The notes beneath the pieces are model-generated. The model had not been told where the DNA came from. It saw only the letters and a list, made by a program, of their open reading frames with translations, and searched no databases. 34,339 nt of DNA from an uncultured bacterium (GTDB lineage Bacteria > Bacillota_I > Bacilli_A > RF39 > UBA660), in NCBI GenBank assembly GCA_946611605.1, contig CAMODU010000011.1:1-34339 (forward strand), in the 5' to 3' direction. Below, in pieces: positions 2,486-30,847 of the stretch; positions within the stretch are counted from its first letter, which is position 1; every line of letters begins with the position of its first letter. A program made the translations under genes and the position numbers.

Positions 2486-2512
2486 AATAATACAAGAAAA
2501 GGAGGAATGTAT

Positions 2513-3445
2513 ATGGAAAATAAAATTGTATTATTTGAAAATGGTGAATTAAAACTAGATGTGGAGGTGATGAATGAAAATGTATGGTTAACCCAAAAAC
2601 AAATGGAAAAGTTGTTTAATGTTTCTCATGCAACTATAAGTGAACATATAACTAATATTTTTTCTTCTGGCGAACTTGATGAAAAAACTTCTGTCGGTTT
2701 TTCCGACAAAAGTACAGGTGGAAGGAAACCTGTTATATACGATTTAGATGTAATTCTTGCCGTGGGTTATCGTGTTAATTCTAAACAAGGTATTGAATTT
2801 AGAAGATGGGCTAGTAACATCTTAAAAGATTATCTTATTGAAGGCTATGCTATTAATATGAAAAGATTAGATTATCTTAATAAAACAGTTAAACTAATTG
2901 AAATAGCTAATAGGCATCCTGATAATATAACAGGAGATCAAGCTAAAAGTATATTACAAGTAATAGGTGATTATACTAAAGCACTAGATTTACTTGATGA
3001 ATATGATCATAGAACCTTAGAAAAGATTAAAGGTACTATAGATAATAGACAAATAAATTATGTTGATTGTTTAAATATAATCAAAGATTTAAGATTTGCT
3101 GATGAATCTGTTATATTTGGTGTAGAAAGAGAACATGGATTTGAATCTATATTAAATGATATATATCAAACCTTTGGTGGAGAAGATGTATATCCATCTA
3201 TAGAAGAAAAAGCATGTAATTTCTTATATACATTAGTTAAGAATCATCCATTTGTAGATGGTAATAAAAGAATTGCTGCTACATTGTTTATATATTTCTT
3301 AAATTACTATGGTTTATTAATTAAAGATGGTAGACAAGTAATAGATAATAATACTTTAACAGCAGTTACTTTATTAATTGCTGAATCTAATCCTAAAGAA
3401 AAGCAAATAATAATAGATTTAGTAATGAATTTCTTAAATGATTAA
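2513..3445 (+). CDS. RhuM-Fic/Doc fusion protein
   Basis: Two-domain protein of 310 residues. The N-terminal part (about residues 3-110) is RhuM-like (Virulence_RhuM), with VWLTQKQMEKLFNVS, a helix-turn-helix-like region, and FRRWASNILKDYLIEGY. The C-terminal part is a Fic/Doc domain with HPFVDGNKR (H245 in this numbering), which fits HxFx(D/N)GNKR. Fic proteins transfer AMP or other phosphate-containing groups to target proteins; Doc phosphorylates EF-Tu. The Lys in the motif leans towards Doc, but the reaction cannot be told. I use the ATG at 2513, seven bases after AAGGAGG (2499-2505); the ATG at 2507 is too close to that site. No small antitoxin ORF adjoins it. An obvious (S/T)xxxE(G/N) inhibitory motif was not identified. 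Codon use is mixed: the RhuM half carries GGC, GTC, TCC and CGT codons, the Fic half is host-like. RhuM genes are typical of accessory DNA. Confidence 0.85.
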   Translation: MENKIVLFENGELKLDVEVMNENVWLTQKQMEKLFNVSHATISEHITNIFSSGELDEKTSVGFSDKSTGGRKPVIYDLDVILAVGYRVNSKQGIEFRRWASNILKDYLIEGYAINMKRLDYLNKTVKLIEIANRHPDNITGDQAKSILQVIGDYTKALDLLDEYDHRTLEKIKGTIDNRQINYVDCLNIIKDLRFADESVIFGVEREHGFESILNDIYQTFGGEDVYPSIEEKACNFLYTLVKNHPFVDGNKRIAATLFIYFLNYYGLLIKDGRQVIDNNTLTAVTLLIAESNPKEKQIIIDLVMNFLND

Positions 3446-6188: not shown

Positions 6189-6213
6189 TAATATAATTGA
6201 GAGGGTGTTTAAT

Positions 6214-8619
6214 ATGGGTAGTGGTATTTTTTTTCCTATTTCTGCGATTCCAGTAATACTTATCGTAATTATTACTTTTAATTTGAAGGGACATGTTAAA
6301 AGTGATGAAACGAATTTATTTAATGCTTTGATTATTACTAATTTTTTAGGTTTAATTATTGAATTATTTTGTTCATGGGCGTGTTATATTTCTTCGTCAC
6401 ATGTTTTGCTTGCTGAGTTAATTTTGAAATTATACTTGGTATATACTATTGCGTGGACCTTATTATTTACAATTTATATATTAAAAATATCATTTACTAA
6501 TGTATCAAAAAGAAATATTTTTCTTCATATTCTTTTCTTTATCATAGTTGTATTAATAATATATATTTTACCAATTAATATTGTTGTAGAAAATAACATG
6601 TCAGTTTTTTACACTTCCGGAAAAAGTGTTAATTTTTCATATTTTGTAAGTTTAATTTATATTTTAGAAATATTATTTGTTATTATAAAATCTATTAAAA
6701 AACTTAAAGATAAAAAGTATTTGCCAGTTTTTTTATTCTTTATAATTGGTACAATTGCTATCTCAATACAAAAGTCGCATCCGGAGTTTTTATTATTAAC
6801 ATATTCTCAAACTATTATTTGTTTAACTATGTATTTTACAATCGAAAATCCAGATGTAAAGATGTTAGAACAAGTTGAAATAGCTCGTGATAGGGCAGAT
6901 AAAGCGAATCAAGCTAAATCAGATTTTTTATCTTCTATGTCTCATGAGATAAGAACACCATTAAATGCTATTGTTGGTTTCTCTGAATGTGTTAATCAAG
7001 CTGAAACATTAGAAGAAGCAAAAGAAAATGCAAAAGATATCATGGGTGCATCTCAAACATTATTAGAGATTGTAAATGGTATATTAGATATTTCTAAGAT
7101 TGAATCTGGTAAGATTGAATTAATTGAAAATGACTATGATCCATATAAGATGTTAGATGAAACAGTTAAGTTAGCTAAAGGTAGATTAGGTGATAAACCA
7201 TTAGAGTTTAATGTTAATATTGCACCTGATATACCTAAGGTATTATATGGAGATAAGTTTAATATTAAGAAGATATTAATTAACTTCTTAACTAATGCTA
7301 TTAAATATACTGATGAAGGTTATGTTAATTTTGATGTTCAATGTGTTAAGTTAAATGGATATGTAAGATTAATATTCTCTGTAGCTGATTCAGGAAGAGG
7401 TATTAAAAAGGAAGATATATCTAAATTATTTACTAAATTCCAAAGATTAGATGAAGAAAAGAATCAAACAATTGAAGGTACTGGTTTAGGACTTGCAATT
7501 ACTAAACAATTAGTTGATATGATGAAAGGTACTGTAGTTGTTGATTCGGTATATGGTGAAGGTTCTAAATTCACATTTACATTAGATCAAAAGATATCTG
7601 ATAACGTATTAGATGATACTACTTCTCAATTGAATGTAGTAGTTGATTTAACAGGTAAAAAGATACTTGTAGTAGATGATAATAAACTAAACTTAAAAGT
7701 CGCTGATAAACTATTAAAACAATATAATGTAGCTATTACATTATGTAATTCAGGTGCTGATTGTTTAGATTTAATTGAGAATGGTAATAAATTTGATTTG
7801 ATATTATTAGATGATATGATGCCTAGTATGTCTGGTACTGAAACATTATTACATTTAAAAGATAAACATGGATTTAATACACCAGTAGTTGCATTAACTG
7901 CTAATGCAATTAATGGTATGAAAGAAAAGTATTTAGAAGCAGGTTTTGATGGCTATTTAGCTAAACCTATTGATAGAAATGAATTATATAAAACTTTAGT
8001 TAAATTTATGAATCCTTTAGCAACATATGATGCTGATTCTAATTCTATGGTAATATCATCAGAAGAAGAGGAAACTAAAGAAGAAGTAAAAGAAACTATT
8101 AAACAAGATCCTGATGTACCTAGAATATCTACTATAGGAGATATTCCTAAGTATGTACCAGATAATAAAGAAATAGTTATTAATCCTGGTGATAAAAAAG
8201 AAGTAAAAGAAACTACTAAGAAATCTACTAAGAAAGCATCTGATAGAACTACAGATGAAATAAGAATACTTATAGTAGATGATAATAATTTAAATATTAA
8301 AGTAGAATCTAAATTAATTACATCTTTAGGTTATAAAGTAGAAGCTGCTAATTCAGGTGTAGAAGCAATTAATATGGTTCAACATACTAAATATAATATT
8401 ATCTTAATGGATATTATGATGCCTATGATGGATGGTGTTAAAGCTTTACATGAATTAGAAAAGTTAGAAGGATTTGATACTCCTGTAATAGCCTTAACTG
8501 CTGATGCTGTTTTAGGTGCTAAAGATAAGTACTTAAAAGAAGGTTTTGATCAATATGTTACAAAGCCTATAAATAAGGAAGAATTAGAGAAAATACTATC
8601 TAAATATATTAAGAAATAA
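6214..8619 (+). CDS. Hybrid sensor histidine kinase with two receiver domains
   Basis: An 801-residue membrane sensor. About six or seven hydrophobic segments fill residues 1-215. A short linker leads to the HisKA domain with SMSHEIRTPLNA (phospho-acceptor H244), then a HATPase domain with NAIKYT (N361), DSGRGI and GTGLGLAIT. Receiver 1 has VVDDN and LLDDMMP (phospho-Asp D533), with TAN and KP further on. An acidic and lysine-rich linker of about 70 residues leads to receiver 2 with IVDDN and LMDIMMP (D733), TAD and KP. There is no DNA-binding output domain, so the signal probably passes to a separate phosphotransfer protein or regulator that is not in the window. The start at 6214 follows GAGAGGG by eight bases; a GTG at 6205 is less likely. 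The sensor half, to about 6900, uses NCG and CGT codons freely, whereas the kinase and receivers are host-like. The ligand is unknown. Confidence 0.95.
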   Translation: MGSGIFFPISAIPVILIVIITFNLKGHVKSDETNLFNALIITNFLGLIIELFCSWACYISSSHVLLAELILKLYLVYTIAWTLLFTIYILKISFTNVSKRNIFLHILFFIIVVLIIYILPINIVVENNMSVFYTSGKSVNFSYFVSLIYILEILFVIIKSIKKLKDKKYLPVFLFFIIGTIAISIQKSHPEFLLLTYSQTIICLTMYFTIENPDVKMLEQVEIARDRADKANQAKSDFLSSMSHEIRTPLNAIVGFSECVNQAETLEEAKENAKDIMGASQTLLEIVNGILDISKIESGKIELIENDYDPYKMLDETVKLAKGRLGDKPLEFNVNIAPDIPKVLYGDKFNIKKILINFLTNAIKYTDEGYVNFDVQCVKLNGYVRLIFSVADSGRGIKKEDISKLFTKFQRLDEEKNQTIEGTGLGLAITKQLVDMMKGTVVVDSVYGEGSKFTFTLDQKISDNVLDDTTSQLNVVVDLTGKKILVVDDNKLNLKVADKLLKQYNVAITLCNSGADCLDLIENGNKFDLILLDDMMPSMSGTETLLHLKDKHGFNTPVVALTANAINGMKEKYLEAGFDGYLAKPIDRNELYKTLVKFMNPLATYDADSNSMVISSEEEETKEEVKETIKQDPDVPRISTIGDIPKYVPDNKEIVINPGDKKEVKETTKKSTKKASDRTTDEIRILIVDDNNLNIKVESKLITSLGYKVEAANSGVEAINMVQHTKYNIILMDIMMPMMDGVKALHELEKLEGFDTPVIALTADAVLGAKDKYLKEGFDQYVTKPINKEELEKILSKYIKK

Positions 8620-25932: not shown

Positions 25933-28089
25933 ATGGATAACATAAATAAGTTATATAATAATTTAATAAATTTATGTAATGAAAATGACTATGATAAAGA
26001 TCAAATGGATCTTATAAATAAAGCTTATAATTTTGCATTAAAGCAACATAAAGATATGTTAAGAAAGAATGGTGAACCTTATATAGTTCATCCTTTATGG
26101 GTTGCAATCATTGTAGCAGAATTAAATACTGATTATACAACTGTAGTTGCTGCATTAGTACATGAGACAATAGATCATGGTTCTTCTTCATTAGATGAAT
26201 TAGAAGAATTATTTGGAAAAGATATAAGAGAAATAGTATCTTCATTAAGTAAAGTAAATAAGTTACATTTAGTTGATGATTCTGAATCATCTGCTATCTA
26301 TTTAAGAAAAATACTTGTTGCTTTATCTGAAGATGTTAGAGTCATTATTATTAAATTAGCTGGTAGAGTTCATAATATGAGAACTATAGAAGGTCTTCCA
26401 ACTGATCAACAAAAGATAAAAGCTAAAGAAACAGTAAATGTATTAATACCTATAGCACATAGATTAGGTGTTAATAAACTAAAAGCAGAACTAGAAGACT
26501 TATCATTTAAAGTATTAAAACCAGATGTATATGATCAAATAGAAAATGAATTACCAGAGCCAAGAGCTGATTTACAATTACAATTAAATTCTATGATGGA
26601 TGATATAGCTGATGATTTAATGGAAGTTGGTATTACTAACTTTAATATTAAATGTAGAGTTAAATCAGTATCATCTATTAATAATAAATTAAATAATGGA
26701 CATACATGGAATAATATATATGATATTTTAGGTATTAGAATAATATGTGAAACAGTACCTGATTGTTATTTAATTATAGGTTTAATACATAATAAATATA
26801 GACCTATACCTAAGCGTTTTAAAGACTATATAGCTATGCCTAAAGGTAATTCATATCAATCACTTCATACTGGTATATATGGTATTAATAATTATCCTGT
26901 AGAAATACAAGTTAGAACATATGAAATGAATGAAATAGCTGAGCACGGTTTAGCATCTCACTGGTCTTATAAAGAACATGGTACTAAAGCTGCTTTATCA
27001 GTCATGGAACAAAAACTTCAATTATTTAGAAATAGTATTGAAGCTGCTGATAAAGATGATGAAGAATTAGAATCTAATATTAATGATGAAATATTAGCTA
27101 AAATGATATATGTTAATACACCTAAAGGTGATGTTGTAGAATTACCTGAAGGATCTACTCCAATTGATTTTGCATATCGTATACATTCTAGAGTAGGTGA
27201 TACATGTATAGGCGCTACAGTTAATAATTCTATTGTTACATTAGATTATGAATTACAAGATGGTGATATAGTATCAATTAGAACTGATGCTAACTCAACA
27301 CCTAATAAGGATTGGTTGAAGTTTGCTAGGACTACACAAGCTAAATCTAAGATTAAATCTTATTTCTCTAAACAAGATAGAGAAAACTATATAGCACGTG
27401 GTCAAGAATTATTAGAAAAAGAATTAAAGAAACAAAAGATTCCTTTAGCTGAAGCATTAACTGATGATCATAAAAATAAATTAATTGCAGATTTAGGTGC
27501 AAAGGAATTTGATGAAGTATTATTACAAATAGGTTCTTTAAGATATACTCCTGTATATATTATTAATCTTATTTATAATGATAAAGAAAATGTAGAAGAT
27601 GTATTATTAGATAAGATAACCAATAATAATAGATATGAAACTACTAATTATAAAGCAGATATAATTGTATCTGGTAATGATGATATTCTTGTTACATTAG
27701 CATCATGCTGTAAGCCTGTATATGGTGATGATATAGTTGGTTATATTACTAAAGGGCATGGTATAACTGTTCATAGAAAAGATTGTATCAATGTTGCTGG
27801 ATTAACTGATAGATTAATTGATGTTGATTGGAATAATAGGAATAAAGAAGAAGAAAAGAAGTATTCTGCAAGACTTAGAATATATACAAATGGTATTAAT
27901 AATAAGTTAATAGATATAGTTACTATTGCATCTCAAGATAATATAGTTATAGCTAATGTATCTGAAGTAAATGGCAATAATACAGCTTATTATGATATCT
28001 TAGTTAGAGTAAAAGATAATGCTACTTTAAAGAAATTTATAGATAGTGTTAAATCAATATCATTTGTTACGGATGTAAGGAGAATATAG
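25933..28089 (+). CDS. rel: RelA/SpoT-family (p)ppGpp synthetase with a degenerate hydrolase domain
   Basis: Stringent-response enzyme of 718 residues with the full long-RSH order: HD hydrolase (about 25-180), synthetase (about 235-350), TGS (about 390-450), zinc-finger-like part with CCKP and HRKDC, and a C-terminal ACT domain. The synthetase keeps the RxKxxxSxxxK pattern (RVKSVSSINNK), DILGIRI, RFKDYIAMPK, YQSLHT, VEIQVRT. The hydrolase site is damaged. H53 and H77 are present, but position 78 is Glu instead of Asp, the following ED pair is D81-H82, and the LADRLHNMRT Asp (D144 in Streptococcus Rel) is Gly144. So this protein probably makes but does not degrade (p)ppGpp, although its RFKD motif is that of bifunctional enzymes. 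It abuts comN upstream and dtd downstream; rel-dtd is a common pair in Bacillota. Confidence 0.96.
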   Translation: MDNINKLYNNLINLCNENDYDKDQMDLINKAYNFALKQHKDMLRKNGEPYIVHPLWVAIIVAELNTDYTTVVAALVHETIDHGSSSLDELEELFGKDIREIVSSLSKVNKLHLVDDSESSAIYLRKILVALSEDVRVIIIKLAGRVHNMRTIEGLPTDQQKIKAKETVNVLIPIAHRLGVNKLKAELEDLSFKVLKPDVYDQIENELPEPRADLQLQLNSMMDDIADDLMEVGITNFNIKCRVKSVSSINNKLNNGHTWNNIYDILGIRIICETVPDCYLIIGLIHNKYRPIPKRFKDYIAMPKGNSYQSLHTGIYGINNYPVEIQVRTYEMNEIAEHGLASHWSYKEHGTKAALSVMEQKLQLFRNSIEAADKDDEELESNINDEILAKMIYVNTPKGDVVELPEGSTPIDFAYRIHSRVGDTCIGATVNNSIVTLDYELQDGDIVSIRTDANSTPNKDWLKFARTTQAKSKIKSYFSKQDRENYIARGQELLEKELKKQKIPLAEALTDDHKNKLIADLGAKEFDEVLLQIGSLRYTPVYIINLIYNDKENVEDVLLDKITNNNRYETTNYKADIIVSGNDDILVTLASCCKPVYGDDIVGYITKGHGITVHRKDCINVAGLTDRLIDVDWNNRNKEEEKKYSARLRIYTNGINNKLIDIVTIASQDNIVIANVSEVNGNNTAYYDILVRVKDNATLKKFIDSVKSISFVTDVRRI

Positions 28090-28527
28090 ATGAGAGTAGT
28101 AGTACAAAGATCATTAAAATCATCTGTATCTGTTGATAATAAAGTTATTAATAAAATAGATAAAGGTTTAATGCTATTAGTAGGTATCAATGTAGAAGAT
28201 ACTACTAAAGATGTTGATTGGATGGTTAATAAAGTATTAAACCTAAGAATATTTGATGATGAAAATGGTGTAATGAATAAATCTATATTAGATGTAGGTG
28301 GAGAAATCTTATCTATATCTCAATTCACTTTACAAGCAGAAACCAAGAAAGGTAATAGACCATCTTATATAAATGCTATGAAAGGTGAAGATGCCAATAA
28401 ACTATATGAAGAGTTTAATAATAAATTAAATGAACATATAAAAACATATCCTGGTGTATTTGGTGCTGATATGTTAATAGATATTCAAAATGATGGACCA
28501 ATTACAATTATATTAGATAGTAAATAA
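28090..28527 (+). CDS. dtd: D-aminoacyl-tRNA deacylase
   Basis: Removes D-amino acids, and misplaced Gly, from tRNA. The 145-residue length is normal. It begins MRVVVQRSLKSSVSV, has the SQFTL catalytic motif, KGNRPSY, and NDGPITI near the end, where the family's Gly-cisPro sits as NxGPxT. AAGGAG inside the 3' end of rel serves as ribosome binding site, and the ATG directly follows the rel TAG. The unit ends in a bidirectional terminator. Confidence 0.97.
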   Translation: MRVVVQRSLKSSVSVDNKVINKIDKGLMLLVGINVEDTTKDVDWMVNKVLNLRIFDDENGVMNKSILDVGGEILSISQFTLQAETKKGNRPSYINAMKGEDANKLYEEFNNKLNEHIKTYPGVFGADMLIDIQNDGPITIILDSK

Positions 28528-28553
28528 AAAAGAGTTATTTAATAACTCTTTTT
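28527..28553. terminator. Bidirectional terminator between dtd and the convergent peptidase gene
   Basis: AAAAAGAGTTA (28527-28537) pairs with TAACTCTTTTT (28543-28553) around a 5-base loop. A and T tracts on both sides allow it to work on either strand; the stop codon of the minus-strand gene (28535-28537) is inside the stem. Confidence 0.85.
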
Positions 28554-29629
28554 ACTTTGTCTAATCTTTCTTTTTCTTCTATTAATAATTTATTATTATC
28601 TGAATAGAAATCAAACATAGTTTTCATTTCTGTATTGAAGAATTCTGAATTGCAGAATTTACCTAATTGTTTAATAAATGCAAATTGTTCAGGTGTATCA
28701 TATTTCTTAGATAATTCTAAACATACAAGATAATCTATAATGTTTGTAATAGTATCAAATCCATTTATATTACATATATTTGGTATATCTTCTTCTTCCA
28801 AATAAGCATCTTTAAATTGTGTTTCTGTTTGAATAAAACTAGATGCTTTGTTTATATCAAATTTATTATCTTTAGCAGTATAGAATAACGTATCATTTAA
28901 ATATAATTGAAATGATGTATATAATACAGTTTGAAGGTTATATGCATCTATTTCATTAGCCCATTTTTCCATATTATGTTCTCTCATATATTGAGTAGCA
29001 AGTCTTTCTCCAAATCTACCTTCTAATTCTTGGAAATAATCACTTACTAATTCATCTTTATCTTTATATCTATATATTATTGCATGCATTACTTCATGCA
29101 TGAATGTTTCTATATCATATGGTGTATGTCTTCTTTTTAATATAACATATGGTTTTTCATTTGTATGATCATAATAAGTTATACCATATACATCATCATG
29201 CATATCTTCTAAATCATCATCTACTATATGTAAATAATGATTACCATGTTTAACTAATTCTTTATATATTTCTAATGATTTTTTATCTTTTAAAGATTCA
29301 ACCATTTCATATCCAAGTTCAATTAATTCATTATTCTTTAAAGTAATATTAGAATGTTTTATTATAGTATATAAATCATCTTCGTCTTTAACTATACCAA
29401 ATATATCTACACATCTATCAAATATATCTGCATTTATATATTCCATTTCATTACTATAATAATCAAACATTGATTGATAATTATTATCTGGTAAATCTAT
29501 TTTATCAGCATGAATATCATTTAGTAATGCTAACATACAGTTAAAATGTTCTTCTGATATCTTATCATTATGATTAATAGCATTCTTTAAACCTTTTAAT
29601 AATAATTTCTCTTTCCATCTATATTTCAT
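28535..29629 (-). CDS. Putative zinc metallopeptidase with HEVMH motif
   Basis: A 364-residue cytosolic protein without signal peptide or membrane segment. The HExxH motif is HEVMH (178-182) in FMHEVMHAIIYRY, followed after about 20 residues by QELEGRFGE, which offers Glu201 or Glu203 as third zinc ligand, the spacing of gluzincins such as M3 oligopeptidases. The N-terminal 150 residues are helical with many acidic positions, and the C-terminal part is helical too. I cannot assign it to a named family. It is last in a minus-strand group of three (30824 to 28535), 21 bases after the YigZ-like gene. The ribosome binding site is weak (AAAAGG, about 11 bases upstream). Confidence 0.75.
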   Translation of the reverse strand: MKYRWKEKLLLKGLKNAINHNDKISEEHFNCMLALLNDIHADKIDLPDNNYQSMFDYYSNEMEYINADIFDRCVDIFGIVKDEDDLYTIIKHSNITLKNNELIELGYEMVESLKDKKSLEIYKELVKHGNHYLHIVDDDLEDMHDDVYGITYYDHTNEKPYVILKRRHTPYDIETFMHEVMHAIIYRYKDKDELVSDYFQELEGRFGERLATQYMREHNMEKWANEIDAYNLQTVLYTSFQLYLNDTLFYTAKDNKFDINKASSFIQTETQFKDAYLEEEDIPNICNINGFDTITNIIDYLVCLELSKKYDTPEQFAFIKQLGKFCNSEFFNTEMKTMFDFYSDNNKLLIEEKERLDKVKRVIK

Positions 29630-29650: not shown

Positions 29651-29995
29651 TTATTTAATTACTTCATTAGCTACAGTAGAGTAGCATCTTGTAAGTGGAC
29701 CAACACCTAAAAGTGTTCCACCAAAATATCTAACTATTACGATTAATATATTATCTAAATTATTTCTTATAATTGTATTATAAATTGGCATACCAGCAGT
29801 ATTCTTAGGTTCTTTATCATCTGTCTTCTTGATGATAGGACCAACTTTATATGCAAATACTACATGTCTTGCTTTCTTATTATCTTGTTTTATTTGTTTA
29901 ATTATTTCTTCAGCTTCTTCTTGAGAAGATACATTATAATAATAACCAATAAACTTTGATTTCTTTAATTCATATGTATATTCATTAATTAACAT
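29651..29995 (-). CDS. YigZ/IMPACT-family protein, N-terminal domain only
   Basis: A 114-residue protein matching the UPF0029 (IMPACT N-terminal) domain: KKSKFIGY, ARHVVFAYKVG, TDDKEPKNTAGMPI and VIVRYFGGTLLGVGPLTRCYS. Full YigZ proteins have about 205-215 residues, with a second DUF1949 domain that is absent here. The conserved DDGEP is DDKEP and the GGLVRAY is GPLTRCY, so the usual conserved surface is altered as well. The start at 29995 follows AGGAAG; the longer frame from 30013 has no such site. The role of the family is poorly known; links to translation control have been proposed for IMPACT. Middle gene of the minus-strand group. Confidence 0.85.
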   Translation of the reverse strand: MLINEYTYELKKSKFIGYYYNVSSQEEAEEIIKQIKQDNKKARHVVFAYKVGPIIKKTDDKEPKNTAGMPIYNTIIRNNLDNILIVIVRYFGGTLLGVGPLTRCYSTVANEVIK

Positions 29996-30026
29996 ATTAA
30001 TCTTCCTAACCATTAATATTATATCA

Positions 30027-30824
30027 TTATTTTGAATAATTAATACTTAGTTTATTTACTACATCTTTAAAATCATATTCATGTGTAGTATGTAATTCTT
30101 CCATAACTGAATTAGCTTTATAAGGATTCTTTAAATACATACTATATATTTGCTTAGCTATTAGATATGAATTTATTTGAGATAGATTATTCATATAATT
30201 ATTATTTATTAATTTATCTAAATCATCTTTATCAATAGATATATTAATTCCTTTATTTTCTAATAATCTATTTAGTTTAGCAACACTTACAAATAATTTA
30301 TTTTGTCTATATAAATCTAATAAATATATATCTTGTATATTATCTAATGTTTCATTAAATAAACTCTCAGTTATATATAATACATGACCAGATCTATTAT
30401 TAATTGTTCTTTCAATTATAAAATTAAATAGATATGTATCTAAATATGGAATATATTTTTTAACTAATTCACATTCACCAAATACATTACTAGATACTTC
30501 ATCTGCTAAGAATTTAGCTAGTCCATATATGTGATCAATATCCATATTACTATTCTTATTATTATATATTTCTATATTCTTTAAAGCTTTAGCTAATTCT
30601 TTCTTCATATCTGAATTATTTAATCTATCTACAGTAAGTAATAAATAATTCATGACATCAGCTTTTCTAAACATAGCATTGTGATAATCGGCATATTCAA
30701 ATTTAGGATGATTTTCAAATAATCTTACTAAATAATTATATGATCCTTCAACTATTAGATTAGTAACTAATTCTATTTCATGTTGTTTATGTAATAACTC
30801 TTTCTTTTGTTGTGTATTAAACAT
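30027..30824 (-). CDS. Uncharacterised helical protein, 265 residues
   Basis: I do not recognise this protein. It is soluble, mostly helical by composition, and rich in Leu, Asn and Lys, with one cysteine (FGECELVKKY). Segments like KADVMNYLLLTVDRLNN and KELAKALKNIEIYNN suggest a helical-repeat or bundle fold. The start at 30824 follows GGGGTG by six bases; a GTG at 30833 also opens the frame. It is first in the minus-strand group with the YigZ-like and HEVMH genes, with 31 bases to the next start, and divergent from uvrC across 97 bases. Codon use is host-like. Confidence 0.75.
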   Translation of the reverse strand: MFNTQQKKELLHKQHEIELVTNLIVEGSYNYLVRLFENHPKFEYADYHNAMFRKADVMNYLLLTVDRLNNSDMKKELAKALKNIEIYNNKNSNMDIDHIYGLAKFLADEVSSNVFGECELVKKYIPYLDTYLFNFIIERTINNRSGHVLYITESLFNETLDNIQDIYLLDLYRQNKLFVSVAKLNRLLENKGINISIDKDDLDKLINNNYMNNLSQINSYLIAKQIYSMYLKNPYKANSVMEELHTTHEYDFKDVVNKLSINYSK

Positions 30825-30847
30825 ATATAACACCCCATTTAATAGGT

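Follow-up and report, generated by a model that had tools for sequence, protein, structure and literature searches.

The window analysed here, a 34,339-nucleotide stretch of DNA from an uncultured bacterium of the RF39 Bacilli (GCA_946611605.1, contig CAMODU010000011.1), encodes a long Rel enzyme whose (p)ppGpp hydrolase site has lost its catalytic residues and whose synthetase is intact. The explanation that we consider likely is that Rel was duplicated at the base of this bacterial family, giving rise to a long synthetase without hydrolase and a short hydrolase without synthetase, and that the short copy belonging to the window lies in a gap of its assembly. This explanation starts from residues, domain architecture, phylogeny, distribution and the gap itself, all observed directly, and reads from them the probable activities and regulation of the two copies and the presence of the short one in this organism. 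The textbook picture of Bacillota is one bifunctional Rel accompanied by small synthetases. The Bacilli would here possess a division of labor resembling that of RelA and SpoT, arisen separately. A search of open-licence papers yielded nothing on (p)ppGpp in RF39-type Bacilli, and the split is, provisionally, newly recognized for this branch of bacteria.

The rel gene (25933-28089, + strand) opens with ATG and encodes 718 aa. The protein scores 638.2 bits against TIGR00691 (E 1.6e-191; cut-off 499.2), and a Pfam profile search finds five domains in the order HD_4, RelA_SpoT, TGS, RelA_AH_RIS and ACT_4. The HD_4 domain (aa 31-180; 26023-26472; PF13328) is followed by the synthetase domain (aa 242-350; 26656-26982; PF04607, E 1.8e-37), the TGS domain (aa 392-451; 27106-27285; PF02824), a helical and RIS/zinc-finger region (aa 464-614; 27322-27774; PF19296) and the ACT domain (aa 641-717; 27853-28083; PF13291), all on the + strand. 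In the AlphaFold2 model (pLDDT 79.0, pTM 0.48) the hydrolase domain is folded, with block pLDDT mostly 76-95, and the hydrolase and synthetase domains match known Rel structures (Z 35.7). The gene dtd, encoding D-aminoacyl-tRNA deacylase (28090-28527, +; TIGR00256), begins immediately behind the stop codon of rel, and the abutting coordinates make co-transcription of the two genes probable.

Aligned with B. subtilis Rel (6yxa sequence), which has the canonical H53, H77, D78, E81, D82 and D144, the window protein reads H53 (CAT), H77 (CAT), E78 (GAG), D81 (GAT), H82 (CAT), G144 (GGT), N148 (AAT) and T151 (ACT). Of the set expected of a bifunctional Rel (H53, H77-D78, E81-D82 and D144), it thus carries E78, D81, H82 and G144 instead of the four acids. 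The HDxxED motif has become HExxDH, with ETIDH at codons 78-82 (26164-26178, +), and the metal-ligand Asp is replaced by Gly at codon 144 (26362-26364, +). The synthetase is complete: RxKxxxSxxxK, D264, RFKD, K304, N306, YQS, H312, EIQ.RT and E324, the equivalent of E323 in RelSeq, are all present, so that D264, E323 and RXKD, expected of a bifunctional Rel, are intact. A reading of the sequence alone had described just this combination of degenerate hydrolase site, with H53 and H77 kept, and intact synthetase motifs, and codons and alignment bear it out. Its statement that the numbering is exactly that of Streptococcus Rel holds for the hydrolase domain but is slightly too strong overall, an offset of +1 occurring at ~242-252 and at E324.

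A protein search of relatives revealed a second RSH of ~480-500 aa in many members of the family, besides the long Rel. Its architecture is HD-SYN-TGS; it ends after TGS and has neither RIS nor ACT. A representative (L037, 4036-5496) encodes 486 aa with HD_4, RelA_SpoT and TGS and no later domain. All ten other sampled members of the genus possess it, eight as whole genes, one (G001) as two pieces on two contigs and one (G004) as a fragment where a contig ends. Among the matches listed, 73 of 146 order-level genomes that are at least 90% complete, about half, match the short-copy profile at least twice. Three genomes (G037, G038 and G111) carry two short RSH copies each (L060/L062, L064/L065 and L185).

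The residues of the short copy are the mirror image of those in the window Rel. R44, H53, H77, D78, E81, D82, D144, N148 and T151 are kept in all 57 full-length aligned copies, and the same 57 have all lost E323, replaced by Gln in 56 of them and by Lys in the other; S247 has mostly become Gly, and R295 mostly Lys. In PMC13299517, which cites Hogg, D264G and E323Q are each reported to eliminate the synthetase activity of RelSeq. By its residues, then, the short paralog has the intact hydrolase and dead synthetase of a hydrolase-only SpoT analog. The predicted model of the copy from G005, the nearest relative, is stronger than that of the window Rel (pLDDT 92.5 against 79.0) and superimposes on the Rel catalytic domains of 7oiw over 326 residues at 1.8 A (Z 38.0), so that the short copy is modeled with confidence as a Rel N-terminal domain. 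The ratio of hydrolase-domain to synthetase-domain divergence is 0.73 in short copies, where the synthetase diverges more, and is reversed in long copies (1.34-1.44), a pattern that fits a hydrolase kept in the short copy and a synthetase kept in the long one. The sequence-only reading had foreseen a separate hydrolase as one way out of a toxic imbalance; a second RSH does exist in all ten other sampled genus members, but it is a truncated Rel paralog with a dead synthetase and not of the MESH1 type.

The short copies form one clade (SH-aLRT 100), and long and short copies together form another, to which the 13 other Bacilli Rels in the tree do not belong (SH-aLRT 100). This argues for duplication at the base of the family rather than transfer of RelA or SpoT, the tree being a quick one in which some short copies sit on long branches and proteobacterial RelA is not included. 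The window Rel groups with the short paralog of its own family and then beside other Bacilli Rels, not as a RelA by descent would, and proteobacterial RelA, itself absent from the tree, scores below Bacillota and mycobacterial Rel against it. Nor does it have the EXDD motif of RelA, positions 295-298 reading RFKD. From architecture and score the protein is classed as a long RSH, and from descent and its RXKD motif as something other than RelA.

The window's own assembly (G000) is a MAG of 47 contigs and 92.7% completeness in which no short RSH was found in the 1.0 Mb assembled. The window Rel is both its sole RelA_SpoT match and its sole HD_4 match over the cut-off. A MESH1-type hydrolase was sought in it and rejected: none exceeds the cut-off, and a weak HD_4 match at G000:C5 (E 0.02) falls in a protein of 329 aa whose HD domain is of another type. 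Taken at face value, this would leave the organism with a lone Rel without hydrolase, its synthetase tightly gated or weak and its (p)ppGpp cleared by unrelated enzymes such as Nudix proteins and GTPases or by dilution. Five relatives (G022, G036, G047, G048 and G049), each 93% complete or better and one of them (G048) in only 9 contigs, lend this some credence, as in them too the long hydrolase is broken and nothing else matches HD_4 above the cut-off.

We nevertheless regard a lone Rel as improbable in the window's organism. The paralog is present in every other sampled genus member, and what is missing from the assembly is its whole neighborhood. In the nearest relative the short RSH lies within a 20-kb stretch with xseA, yvcK, thiI, hsp20, mraY and recA; this stretch has no syntenic match in the window's assembly, whereas two other genus members (G004 and G009) match it strongly. 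ThiI, Hsp20 and a sortase-like neighbor have no matches in the window's assembly either, and recA, found in all seven other genus genomes tested, was not found there. As recA and the 20-kb block are absent along with it, the missing short gene is not evidence of true absence, and a true loss is unsupported. Bacilli of a free-living type without recA and mraY are much less likely than a gap, and the short copy of the window's organism most likely lies in that gap. Known biology also speaks against a lone Rel: in S. aureus Rel is essential because of its hydrolase (PMC6053245), and relA+ E. coli does not survive the loss of SpoT (PMC3153485). Caution is generally due with anything missing from this MAG. 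The description of the window Rel as the sole long RSH is thus correct for the assembled sequence but probably an artefact of incomplete assembly, and the ‘different balance’ once offered as an alternative is not needed for this organism, although it may apply to the five relatives without a detected partner.

A second reading would have the hydrolase domain still hydrolyzing (p)ppGpp through a rearranged site, with E78 as metal ligand and D81 as the acid, making the window Rel bifunctional at a low rate. The change to E78 is conservative, and across 64 degenerate long copies of the family H53 is invariant and R44, H77, R145, N148 and T151 are kept in 61-63. The catalytic positions themselves tell against it. 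In the ten long Rels of the genus (G000-G006 and G008-G010) the alignment invariably shows E78, no Glu at 81, and one of His and Arg at 82, but position 81 may be D, A, M, G or T, so that neither 81 nor 82 is held as a catalytic residue would be. Among the 64 degenerate copies, positions 78, 81 and 82 vary. D144 has become Gly in the window Rel and four others of the genus (G003, G004, G005 and G009), as well as in one member of another genus (G031), and Ser in the other five genus members. With a dedicated hydrolase of invariant site coexisting, a rearranged site is very improbable.

Recent decay or an assembly error, without functional meaning, is a worry natural enough for a MAG in 47 contigs, but as an explanation of the degeneration it can be set aside almost entirely. 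The changes recur in separately assembled relatives and throughout a 44-member clade, and, relative to the synthetase, the hydrolase domain evolves no faster in degenerate copies than in intact ones (1.34 versus 1.44). That codons 78 and 144 might be assembly errors is accordingly contradicted by all ten long Rels of the genus, and the loss of hydrolase residues beside an intact synthetase proves to be lineage-wide.

Among 127 other long Rels of the family, drawn partly from the matches listed, 64 have all six canonical hydrolase residues and 63 are degenerate. The second of the two genome sets comprises best-scoring matches only and is biased against degenerate copies, so the true degenerate share may exceed 63/127. 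The synthetase is always intact in degenerate long Rels, both in the genus and in the family. On a tree built without the hydrolase-domain columns, the hydrolase site was lost 16 times on the best topology, or at least seven times if only well-supported branches are trusted, and the window Rel sits in the clade of 44 in which every copy is degenerate. Some 16 losses amount to a replicated natural experiment, bearing on why Rel is bifunctional, what the hydrolase domain is for once it is no longer catalytic and whether a synthetase can persist with no hydrolase as its partner.

In the Rel and RelA families, uncharged tRNA on the ribosome is sensed by TGS, RIS and ACT. Together with an intact synthetase these parts make the long copy a probable inducible synthetase, and a mechanism can be proposed. 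After duplication in the ancestor shared by this family of Bacilli, the long copy would have stayed full length with its ribosome- and tRNA-sensing C-terminal half and, in the window's clade, would have dropped the HDxxED acids to become RelA-like (S+/H-). The short copy would have lost everything after TGS and, by the change of E323 to Gln, the general base of the synthetase, and would have kept an invariant hydrolase site (S-/H+). Starved ribosomes would switch on synthesis via the long copy, and the short copy would remove (p)ppGpp, preventing toxic build-up. Removal of the C-terminal domain from S. aureus Rel leaves the enzyme synthetase-off/hydrolase-on in vivo, that domain being dispensable for hydrolysis (PMC6053245).

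The pseudo-hydrolase domain of the long copy would be retained as a structural or regulatory element. Loss of catalysis did not accelerate its evolution, as the two divergence ratios indicate, and in E. coli RelA the inactive hydrolase domain regulates the synthetase (PMC8012599). A regulatory or ligand-binding role is thus plausible. A bolder proposal is that the domain acts as a sensor, binding (p)ppGpp or metal and regulating the synthetase, and that some family members have a synthetase without any RSH-type hydrolase. It draws on the retention of R44, H53, H77, R145, N148 and T151 while the catalytic acids were repeatedly lost, and we think it unlikely as a whole; if it were true, such members would imply a new route of (p)ppGpp removal.

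Strict coevolution of the short copy with degeneration of the long one was considered and rejected. In an unselected set of 55 genomes the short copy occurs in 25 of 36 degenerate and 7 of 19 intact genomes (Fisher p 0.025), and overall, partly among the matches listed, in 38 of 63 and 26 of 64, respectively (p 0.034). The association is weak in these plain tables and absent in phylogenetically independent pairs, which show no trend. In several genomes an intact long Rel is accompanied by a short copy, and in several others a degenerate long Rel has no partner. A sixth relative, G056, is also degenerate without a detected partner, but it is 79% complete, making about six in all; incomplete assembly probably explains some of these cases, not all.

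Other degenerate genomes without a short copy have small HD_4 hydrolases of the MESH1/SAH type (G021, G039 and G046) or a fusion of HD_4 with a P-loop kinase (G015 and G031). The fusion belongs to a ~450-aa family with an intact-looking HD_4 and a P-loop kinase-like AAA domain (L073, 1477-2814, +; L074, 1418-2758, +; L075, 530-1897, -; L148, L149, L154 and L155). Found in several family members, these proteins are possible candidates for a nucleotide hydrolase/kinase. In G031 a 652-aa version (L147, 707-2662, -) has an extra N-terminal HD-type domain, and in G046 the fusion is split, with HD_4 and P-loop portions encoded by adjacent genes that overlap (L150, 1307-1855 and 1851-2408, +).

The window Rel is predicted to work like RelA, and the short copy like a hydrolase-only SpoT. 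As in the RelA/SpoT pair of beta- and gammaproteobacteria, Rel has been duplicated, one copy being a synthetase with a pseudo-hydrolase domain and the other the hydrolase. Here, however, the duplication is a separate one inside Bacilli, the hydrolase copy is truncated after TGS, and the long copy keeps RFKD (RXKD) instead of the EXDD of RelA. It also keeps H53, H77, N148 and T151, whereas E. coli RelA is without the HDxxED motif (PMC8012599). Moraxellaceae such as Acinetobacter baumannii have a full S+/H- and S-/H+ split between RelA and a hydrolase-only SpoT, which retains a pseudo-synthetase domain (PMC9974481, PMC12742793). In A. baumannii the C-terminal domains of SpoT activate the enzyme by way of Core and TGS (PMC9974481). 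This SpoT is full length, unlike the short copies, which are without HEL, RIS and ACT and, after the hydrolase domain, keep only the synthetase domain, linker and TGS.

Within Bacilli the short copy recalls RshC of Bacillus (Atkinson et al. 2011, PMC3153485), a second long-type RSH truncated in the helical domain with HD, SYN and TGS kept, and its own truncation likewise falls within the helical domain. RshC is listed as [HS], the bifunctional type, and is confined to six Bacillus strains (PMC3153485); by that description the short copy, with its dead synthetase and its derivation from the family's own Rel, stands apart. Small alarmone hydrolases (MESH1, SAH) are also dedicated HD_4 hydrolases balancing synthetases, but the short paralog, unlike them, keeps SYN and TGS.

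Some other genes in the window deserve mention. Downstream of dtd lie two genes of 364 and 268 aa without Pfam or NCBIfam match (28535-29629 and 30027-30833, both -) and a 120-aa protein of the YigZ/IMPACT family (29651-30013, -) that covers roughly the initial 60% of the family model and no more. Elsewhere, a protein with RhuM-like and Fic/DOC domains (2507-3445, +) is flanked by enolase and an AMP-binding enzyme, and a hybrid histidine kinase with two receiver domains (6205-8619, +) is encoded in this genome of 1 Mb.
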